A program made the position numbers and the translations under genes. Shown in pieces: positions 7,666 through 10,269 of a stretch of DNA of 55,593 nucleotides; the stretch's first letter is position 1, and the number at the start of each line of letters is the position of its first letter. Source of the stretch: Lachnospiraceae bacterium (GTDB taxonomy: Bacteria > Bacillota > Clostridia > Lachnospirales > Lachnospiraceae); contig JAFUZE010000028.1 of NCBI GenBank assembly GCA_017476765.1, forward strand, positions 1 through 55,593, given 5' to 3'. A model generated the notes under the pieces. It had not been told where the DNA came from. It worked only from the letters and a program-made list of their open reading frames with translations, and did not search any database.

Positions 7666-7914
7666 TTATTCGGAAAGGTGTGTGTGGAACGTACGAGAGA
7701 TAACGTCGTTCTGCTGTTCCGGTGTCAGCTTAATGAAGTTTACAGCATATCCGGATACACGGATTGTCAGCTGCGGATAATTCTCCGGGTGCTTCTGGGC
7801 ATCCAATAAAGTGTCTCTGTTTAATACGTTGACATTTAAGTGATGTCCGCCCTTTGTTGCATATCCGTCTAATAAAGATACTAAGTTATCTACCTGTGTT
7901 GCACTTGCTTCCAT
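7666..7914 (-). CDS. Stand-alone glycyl-radical subunit of pyruvate formate-lyase
   Basis: An 82-residue protein equal to the C-terminal end of a normal pyruvate formate-lyase. It contains the linker [20 protein letters not shown] and the glycyl-radical motif [11 protein letters not shown] with Gly55 as the predicted radical site, then [15 protein letters not shown]. The neighbouring 679-residue core lacks this region; the two lengths sum to 761, close to a one-chain PFL. A strong ribosome site (aaaggagg) precedes the ATG, so this is a real separate gene and not a frameshift artefact. It also resembles GrcA/YfiD, the spare radical domain that rescues oxygen-cleaved PFL in E. coli, but here it would be the only source of the radical unless another gene exists elsewhere. 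Confidence 0.9.
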
Positions 7915-7960
7915 AATGAAATCCTCCTTTTTTGTAAATAATAAGTGATTGGTTATAAAG

Positions 7961-8164
7961 TTATTCGTAATCTTCTAAACCTTGGTGAAGAGTAGGAACG
8001 GAACACGCAAGAGGCGTGCGGGAACAGTCTGTGCATCCCATTGTCTCGACCTGCTTGCTGCCTTCAATGTTCTTGTCAACATCTACATTCACGTGACCAA
8101 CACCCTTCGTCATGCCGGAATCCAGCATTTTTACAAGGTCATCAATCATTGCATTCTCATCCAT
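7961..8164 (-). CDS. Small protein resembling the PFL radical-domain linker
   Basis: A 67-residue protein between the PFL core and the radical subunit, with its own good ribosome site (aaaggaga). Its first half ([20 protein letters not shown]) aligns with [20 protein letters not shown] of the radical subunit, so it appears to be a duplicate of the linker. The second half diverges: it has no RVSGY motif and instead carries [15 protein letters not shown] with three cysteines. I do not know a family for it. Because it shares the docking segment, it could bind the same surface of the core as an assembly factor, spacer or competitor; this is inference. Confidence 0.75.
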
Positions 8165-8229
8165 TGTTTACTCTCCTTTTTAGAATATCCGTTACTGCCC
8201 AAAATGTGAGCAGTAACGATGATATACAA

Positions 8230-10269
8230 TTAGTTGTTCAGATCGACTTCGATATCGCCTGCAAATACCTGATCCTCTTTTCCGAGAGCGCCCGGGATAA
8301 TGGTGAAGGTATTGGAGATACCATCCTGTGCGTACTCGAACGGAAGCTTCGATACAGAAGATAAGGAAGCGACTGCTCCGTGAGTATCACGTCCGTGCAT
8401 TGGGTTAGCGCCCGGAGCGAATGGCTGACCTTTCTTACGTCCATCCGGTGTGTTACCTGTTGCCTTACCATATGTTACGTTAGAAGTAATCGTGAGTACG
8501 GACATGGTAGGGAACGAATCTCTGTAGGTATGATGTCTTCTGATCATGATCATGAACTTCTCAACAAGGTCATGTGCGATCTTGTCTGCACGGTCATCGT
8601 CGTTACCGTATTTCGGGAACTCGCCGGTCGTCTCAAAGTCAACAATCACGCCGTCCTCGTCTCTGATCGGCTTTACAGTTGCATACTTGATAGCTGACAG
8701 AGAGTCTGTTACTACGGAAAGTCCTGCGATACCTGTTGCAAAGTAGCGAAGTACATCTCTGTCATGCAGAGCCATCTGAGCTCTCTCGTAGCAGTATTTA
8801 TCGTGCATATAGTGGATAACGTTCAGAGTATTTACATATACATCTGCCAGCCACTCCATCATATCCGTGAACTTGCTCATAACATCATCGTAGTCAAGAA
8901 CATCGCCTTCGACCGGACGATACTTAGGACCAACCTGCTTCTTGGTAACCTCGTCTACACCGCCGTTCAAAGAGTATAACAGACATTTTGCAAGGTTTGC
9001 TCTTGCTCCGAAGAACTGCATCTGCTTACCGATTACCATAGAAGATACGCAGCATGCAATACCGTAGTCATCGCCGTGTGTCACTCTCATCAGATCGTCA
9101 TTCTCATACTGGATGGAAGAGGACTGGATCGACATCTTCGCACAGTATCTCTTGAAGCTCTCCGGTAATCTTGTAGACCAAAGTACGGTCAGGTTCGGCT
9201 CCGGCGAAGAACCTAAGTTTGTTAAAGTATTTAAATAACGGAAGGACATCTTTGTAACCATGTGACGTCCGTCAATGCCGATACCTCCGATGGACTCGGT
9301 AACCCATACCGGATCGCCTGCGAAAATCTGGTTGTATTCCGGTGTACGAGCGAATTTTACGCATCTTAACTTCATAATGAAGTGGTCAACGAACTCCTGA
9401 ATCTGCTCCTCTGTGAACGTTCCGTTCTGTAAGTCTCTCTGTGCGTAGCAGTCAAGGAAGGTGGAAGTACGTCCGAGGGACATTGCTGCACCGTTCTGCT
9501 CCTTAACAGCACAAAGATAACCGAAGTACGTAGCCTGAATTGCTTCCTGTACGTTGGAAGCCGGCTTGGAAATATCGCATCCGTAGGAAGCTGCCATTTC
9601 CTTCATCAGCTTCAGGGCAGTCATCTGCTCGGAAAGCTCCTCGCGAAGACGGATTACATCATCTGTCATCACGCGTCCGGTAGAATCCTTCTGTGCCTGC
9701 TTATCCTCAAGAAGACGGTCAATACCGTATAATGCGACACGTCTGTAGTCGCCAATGATACGTCCGCGTCCGTAAGCATCCGGAAGACCTGTGATAACGT
9801 GTGAGGAACGGCAAGCTCTCATTTCCTGATTGTAAGCGTCGAAACAGCCTGCGTTGTGCGTCTTTCTGTGTACGGAGAAGAACTCGCTGATCTCAGGATC
9901 GACCTCATATCCGTTGTCTGCACATGCCTTCTCTGCCATACGGATTCCACCGTATACCTGCATAGAACGCTTGAACGGCTTGTCTGTCTGGAATCCGACG
10001 ATTGTCTCTTTGGATTTGTCAAGGTATCCAGGACCGTGAGAGGTAATCGTGGAAACTACCTTGGTGTCCATGTCAAGAACGCCGCCGGCTTCACGCTCCT
10101 GTCTGCTCAGGTCCATAACCTGTGCCCACAAATCCTTTGTGTTCTGTGTAGATCCTGCAAGGAAGGATTCATCACCATCATATGGTGTGTAATTCTTCTG
10201 GATGAAATCTCTGACGTTAATTTCATCCTCCCATTTGCCGCCTACAAAATCTGTCCATTCTGGTCTCAT
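8230..10269 (-). CDS. pflB: Pyruvate formate-lyase catalytic core lacking the radical domain
   Basis: Catalytic part of formate C-acetyltransferase, which converts pyruvate and CoA to acetyl-CoA and formate in fermentation. The 679 residues begin [20 protein letters not shown], as in PFL, and contain the paired catalytic cysteines in [11 protein letters not shown] (Cys406-Cys407). [19 protein letters not shown] and GATNTPDGR-like motifs (here [20 protein letters not shown]) are also present. It stops after [20 protein letters not shown] and an acidic tail, about 80 residues short of a normal PFL, with no RVSGYAV motif. That missing part is encoded by the 82-residue gene downstream. The ribosome site gaggagg is strong, and a near-consensus promoter lies about 110 bases upstream. 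Confidence 0.93.

Follow-up and report, generated by a model that had tools for sequence, protein, structure and literature searches.

Pyruvate formate-lyase (PFL) is a central enzyme of fermentation and, for many anaerobes, a main way of turning pyruvate into acetyl-CoA; in many bacteria it is made as one chain. The window analysed here, a stretch of 55,593 nucleotides from a Lachnospiraceae bacterium, contains a PFL gene that stops before the glycyl-radical domain and a separate gene that encodes such a domain. The locus raises the question whether these genes make up one enzyme in parts, and what lies between them. On the minus strand the genes follow each other in the order PFL core, 67-aa gene, GrcA3, PflA and ferredoxin, and the 315-base gap between the core and GrcA3 genes contains the 67-aa gene, hereafter the middle gene. 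The features are as follows.

10699..10896, plus strand: TIGR03980 'hybrid cluster protein-associated redox disulfide domain' protein (CLGC), divergent to the core
8230..10269, minus strand: PFL core (PflB without the radical domain), 679 aa, TIGR01255 1095.8 bits; ribosome site of the gene GAGGAGG
9049..9054, minus strand: codons of the catalytic pair Cys406-Cys407, equivalent by motif to E. coli C418-C419 (numbering from the available part of PMC12338860)
8173..8178, minus strand: Shine-Dalgarno sequence AAGGAG of the middle gene, 8 bases 5′ of its ATG
7961..8164, minus strand: middle protein, 67 aa: the docking element of the radical domain, lacking the glycine loop, and then a cysteine tail
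8003..8035, minus strand: cysteine element of the middle protein, Cys44, Cys47 and Cys54 (C-T-D-C-x6-C)
7923..7929, minus strand: Shine-Dalgarno sequence AAGGAGG of the GrcA3 gene
7666..7914, minus strand: stand-alone glycyl-radical subunit GrcA3, 82 aa, NF038360 160 bits
7750..7752, minus strand: codon of the radical Gly55 (E. coli Gly734), in RVSGYAV
6732..7508, minus strand: PFL-activating enzyme PflA (radical SAM), 258 aa, TIGR02493 297 bits (cut-off 231.75)
6361..6549, minus strand: 4Fe-4S ferredoxin, 62 aa, by profile match

The first-pass annotation had described a 679-residue core with Cys406-Cys407 that stops short of the radical domain, and the profile search agrees with this description. 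The core exceeded the TIGR01255 cut-off of 994.2 bits, yet matched only positions 2-665 of the 744 in the profile. It carries the adjacent catalytic Cys-Cys pair by which a PFL is recognised (C406-C407) and no radical domain in the same chain; the remainder of the profile is GrcA3. The radical part, with Gly55 in RVSGYAV, is a gene of its own, as had been stated, with the ribosome site AAGGAGG. Its 82-aa product also matched the last part of the PFL model and just exceeded the NF038360 cut-off of 158 bits for GrcA3, and the radical loop R[VI]SGYAV was present in all 79 GrcA3 proteins of the family, that of the window included. On E. coli PFL (1h16), the core aligns up to residue 681 and the radical subunit from residue 683 on; as the two matches abut, nothing is missing between core and GrcA3. 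The lengths sum to 761 residues versus 759 in the 1h16 chain, so that the total is that of a normal PFL, as first proposed. The same break was found in 80 of 80 loci from other genomes, located through the middle protein, and is therefore not an assembly error. Further loci of the family likewise displayed the break between core and radical domain. It is almost certain that the PFL chain is split here into a core and a separate radical subunit.

The genome harbouring the window (2.9 Mb, 93% complete) contains one PFL core. PF01228 exceeded its cut-off in this genome only at the two halves described here, and a third, sub-threshold match (17.3 bits) in a 748-codon frame is perhaps the anaerobic ribonucleotide reductase. 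No fused or full-length PFL was detected in the genome, at 93% completeness, by the searches for PFL cores and PF01228, and the second full-length PFL that had been named as a possible refutation was accordingly not among the results. A one-chain pyruvate:ferredoxin oxidoreductase remained below cut-off in the same genome, where only subunit-like pieces were seen. GrcA3 is the sole PFL-type radical domain in the genome and is therefore an obligate subunit, not a spare. The earlier suggestion that the radical part would always be a replaceable subunit thus holds as far as the subunit is obligate here, but the two-gene enzyme on which it was built was incomplete: the core and the radical gene were correctly recognised, whereas the third gene, which encodes the 67-aa cysteine protein, was overlooked, and this protein is the more novel part of the enzyme. 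Cheap renewal of oxygen-damaged enzyme, which had been put forward as the benefit of the split, is a conjecture. Among the matches listed, split and fused PFL occur together in some relatives, for instance in the genomes G085, G119 and G132.

Such relatives, together with the incompleteness of the genome (93% complete) and the NCBIfam name 'autonomous glycyl radical cofactor GrcA3', are what might be said for GrcA3 as a repair spare, with the full-length PFL located elsewhere or missing from the assembly. This is very improbable, since the one PFL core found here stops before the radical domain and since the break lies beside a stand-alone GrcA3 in 80 of the best 80 of 558 loci. The 82-aa protein also departs from GrcA/YfiD: with 100.2 bits it stays below the cut-off of 170 for the model TIGR04365, of which it matched the profile only from position 65 on; it has no disordered N-terminal half; and a full-length PFL that it could repair in the same cell was not found in the genome (93% complete). 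The E. coli pair PflB and GrcA/YfiD is alike in the kind of catalytic core, in the radical domain and in providing the glycyl radical in trans, as described in the available parts of PMC8683613 and PMC12338860. E. coli, however, keeps a fused radical domain for which GrcA is a repair protein, whereas the search of the window's genome gave no fused copy and the enzyme has a third part, which bears cysteines. The disordered N-terminus of E. coli GrcA, 60 residues long, is absent from GrcA3. The name attached to NF038360 implies a cofactor of a whole enzyme, whereas the protein is here the only radical subunit of PFL.

The middle gene was identified in 53 of 200 genomes of the family, that of the window included, and in 2 of 299 genomes drawn across the phylum, both of the same family. 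A scan of genome contigs produced at least 558 relatives, and the analysis used the best 80; 59 of these are labelled as Lachnospiraceae. The order core, middle gene and GrcA3 on one strand was the same in all of the best 80 of 558 loci, although the start of the core was cut off in 22 of them, and the sequence stretch around each contained pflA in 71 and a relative of the ferredoxin in 64 of the 80. One locus (L115) displayed the order core, GrcA3, middle gene in place of the usual core, middle gene, GrcA3. The median pN/pS of the middle gene was 0.12 over 132 pairs of relatives with moderate pS, and 0.21 in the 53 pairs made with the window's copy, where synonymous sites are near saturation. 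The middle gene is under purifying selection.

Profile comparison by hhalign (probability 95.4%, E 1.8e-8) shows homology between the N-terminal half of the middle protein and the docking part of GrcA3. The shared part corresponds approximately to PFL residues 683-705, and the glycine loop is absent from the middle protein. The second half carries the cysteines, with the pattern C-x(3-7)-A-C-x-[VIT]-P in 50 of 53 middle proteins of the family and in 80 of the best 80 of 558 copies; in the window the cysteine tail has the form DC-x6-ACxVPTL. Cys47 and Cys54 are shared by all 20 sequences aligned in A7, and Cys44 is not. The middle proteins of two loci, L078 and L079, end soon after the first CxxC and are without the ACxVPTL part. 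For 18 middle proteins, Pfam yielded no credible family and PF01228 no match at E 1; a Pfam match to BMFP (E 0.16) was regarded as chance. The NCBIfam GrcA3 model matched 13 of the 18 weakly, with a best E of 2.7e-5. A PDB search with the profile of the middle protein returned only matches at chance level, among which those to adenosylhomocysteinase (E 0.33 or worse) were discarded as such. The placing of Cys54 exactly at the position of the radical glycine was also dropped, the register having been counted by eye on the window's protein and the lengths being variable within the family; radical enzymes of the alanyl, seryl and threonyl kind are the subject of PMC11528403, in its available part.

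Split cores without a neighbouring middle gene usually carry tails of their own, such as ...CGNQACNIPNIMESIDNE or ...CSNGACSTPTLFEGLDNDEE, and the C-terminus of the middle protein matched these core tails in a profile comparison (94.3%, E 1e-7). The loci compared were drawn from the 29 split cores, among the matches listed, that have no middle gene beside them, and from all 52 matches to the middle gene within the family, besides the window. In the resulting 80 family loci, from which L052 was left out (G006, 67% complete, no PFL found) and in which L060 stands for the unlinked gene of G002, the cysteine element occurred once each: on an adjacent small protein in 51, on a core tail in 27 and on an unlinked gene in 2. 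Both carriers together were seen in none of the 80 family loci and in none of 14 loci across the class. Core and GrcA3 were both available for 79 of the family loci; 51 of these had a middle gene and no cysteine in the tail, 26 had a tail with at least two cysteines and 2 had neither, and the eightieth locus (L208) has a core tail. The two exceptions, L108 and L106, have a middle-type gene on another contig of their genomes. An unlinked and very divergent middle-type protein, LECENSPVPMACGVPT, was observed as L226 (G130:C51:24253-24468), where the split core has neither a tail nor a neighbouring middle gene. The 14 class-wide loci, which are further stand-alone radical genes among the matches listed and of which one, L119, belongs to the window's own family, had a middle gene in 5 cases, a tail in 6 and no element in 3 (L118, L125 and L127).

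The criterion of at least two cysteines was set after the tails had been inspected, and two or more cysteines were also present within the last 30 residues of 170 of 738 other ORF ends, many of which are not real genes. As cysteine pairs are this common in the background, the evidence for the tail lies in its motif and in its absence from all 51 cores with a middle gene. Of 28 family cores that have no middle gene beside them, 14 carry a strict tail pattern, which was seen in 0 of 738 background ORF ends; the loose pattern C..C..P was found in 24 of the 28, in 0 of 51 cores with a middle gene and in 18 of the 738. The spacing of the cysteines in the element varies, and some tails (DCACCEPN, GCCEDNID) keep only the cysteines, 7 tails being of the DCACCEPN type. 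The docking element is absent from the core tails. Judged from motif and distribution, tail and middle protein are likely to be equivalent carriers of one cysteine element, an estimate that was lowered on account of the high background count of cysteine pairs.

Split PFL was detected in at least 80 of 200 Lachnospiraceae genomes and, among the matches listed, at 13 loci that belong to 8 further families of the class; the search for split forms in other genomes that the first-pass annotation had recommended was thereby positive. A tree was made from 113 core sequences, without the partial cores L030, L031, L037, L055 and L118, without L123, the core of which is broken in two frames, and without L019, which is the same gene as L212. 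In this tree a single branch with an SH-aLRT of 100 separates the main split group from the rest. At least 12 switches between tail and middle gene are needed on the quick tree and at least 11 on the careful tree, and strongly supported branches force at least 7 changes in the state of the middle gene and at least 5 in that of the tail. Four independent pairs could be placed on strongly supported branches; the tail changed in the opposite direction in about three of them and in the same direction in none, and a sign test on these four pairs was not significant (median p 0.25).

Two fused PFLs, L024 and L026, are nested in the split group and have a GrcA3-like radical domain joined directly to the core. 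They have probably been re-fused, and the re-fusion is a single event whose direction is given by parsimony. Neither has a cysteine tail, and no middle gene was found in their genomes (88% and 86% complete), in which their own radical domain gave a weak match. The split core L127, from another family, is located outside the main split group on a long branch, is without the cysteine element and is possibly an independent split.

The way in which the three parts may work together can be depicted as follows. PflA would generate the radical at Gly55 of GrcA3; once charged, GrcA3 would dock on the core, where Gly55 would, by homology, meet Cys406-Cys407. While GrcA3 is away, the cysteine element might occupy or reach the slot of the radical loop, where it would keep the catalytic cysteines reduced and shielded after the model of the C-terminal thiols in class I ribonucleotide reductase, until GrcA3 displaces it. 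In that enzyme a thiol pair at the C-terminus of NrdA re-reduces the active-site cysteines; PFL is not known to need a reductant for each turnover. The C-terminus of E. coli NrdA, GCESGACKI (C-x4-C), resembles the tail GCEAGSCAIP of L089, a likeness of motif for which no homology is claimed, and the NrdA pair is part of the enzyme chain whereas the pair described here can sit on a separate protein. The thiol role is a guess drawn from the position of the element and from this likeness to NrdA. Taken jointly, and apart from the thiol chemistry, the split, the obligate and exchangeable radical subunit and the equivalence of the two carriers are reasonably probable. That the element guards or re-reduces the catalytic cysteines in the empty radical slot is proposed by analogy and tentatively, with somewhat less than even confidence, and the complete picture of a movable thiol element that stands in for the radical loop, maintains the cysteines in reduced form and is then displaced by the freshly charged subunit is offered a little more tentatively still.

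If true, the active site would be exposed each time the radical piece leaves, and gut Clostridia would answer this with a thiol element; a thiol arm similar to that of ribonucleotide reductase would then have been invented within the glycyl radical enzymes, either on the core or on a mimic of the radical domain. AlphaFold models of the core with the middle protein, and of these two with GrcA3 (L182 read-throughs), had mean pLDDT values of 38 and 35, and the low values are probably due to alignments that were shallow and too alike. According to the available part of PMC8683613, binding of YfiD to E. coli PFL 1-695 was undetectable and 32-fold less radical was gained, while E. coli PFL cut at 695, once charged, equals the wild type in activity. 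The natural enzyme, cut at 681/683, must have solved the docking problem that was seen with PFL 1-695; keeping residues 683-695 on the radical part may be one way to do so.

Other functions can be given to the cysteine element. Small cysteine-bearing subunits that bind iron-sulfur clusters are part of 4-hydroxyphenylacetate decarboxylase and benzylsuccinate synthase, in which the radical domain is fused; the profile of the middle protein had no match in the PDB to the small subunits of these two enzymes. A metal site (zinc or iron-sulfur), or a structural clamp that aids the docking of GrcA3 or PflA, is a possible but doubtful function of the element: up to three or more cysteines are clustered, and a split enzyme faces a docking problem of the kind reported for PFL 1-695 and YfiD (PMC8683613, available part), but only two cysteines are invariant in A7, their spacing varies, and 78 of 79 GrcA3 sequences are free of cysteine from the QVDNL region onwards. 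For this last reason the element is unlikely to form a disulfide with GrcA3, and a four-cysteine metal cluster was disfavoured in view of the two invariant cysteines.

The copied docking element without its glycine loop might also point to a competitor or off-switch, in which the middle protein takes up the radical slot, or a thiol on it quenches the glycyl radical by giving up a hydrogen, and the enzyme is parked under the threat of air or low substrate. This we hold to be unlikely. The equivalent core tail has no docking element, and the position of GrcA3 beside the middle gene in 80 of the best 80 of 558 loci fits a constant part better than a switch. Homology of the first half to GrcA3 would likewise be expected if the small ORF were a decayed and functionless duplicate of the radical domain, which is improbable in the extreme: the low pN/pS (median 0.12 over 132 pairs), the cysteine motif kept in 80 of the best 80 of 558 copies and a ribosome site of its own all stand against it. 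The guarding thiol element on two alternative carriers is the reading that we prefer.

The closest solved chains in the PDB are 38la and 38lb, both named 'Formate acetyltransferase' (1085 and 1118 bits), and neither has a GrcA3 match at E 0.01. Chain 38lb continues past the core with GECDMCEMKELD, which includes two cysteines, and 38la could be a cut construct. As both are cores that lack a radical domain, they suggest that the split has already come to the notice of others. No chain of the GrcA3 type or of the middle protein was found in the PDB, and neither split PFL nor GrcA3 nor the middle protein was the subject of any paper found by a literature search in a library with few subscription journals. 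What appears to be new is the cysteine element, together with its two carriers and the fact that they exclude each other.

A separate radical subunit that is common in one gut family means that the exit of the radical domain from the barrel for activation, and the enzyme's survival of oxygen, can be put to the test with only two or three small proteins. With the 67-aa protein comes a definite new gene that belongs to no Pfam family, and nature's own exchanges of tail, small protein and re-fused enzyme provide ready-made controls.

Scans for promoters and terminators revealed no excess over shuffled sequence. On the other side of the core, 50 of the best 80 of 558 loci had at least 1.5 kb of sequence upstream, and in these a relative of the TIGR03980 protein was present in 46 and a MecA-like gene in 39. 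The TIGR03980 redox-disulfide neighbour is at most a candidate thiol partner, and its position is provisionally regarded as synteny. Among the 28 family loci in which no middle gene adjoins the core, 6 contained such a protein within the sequence around each, and it was also seen near two fused PFLs.
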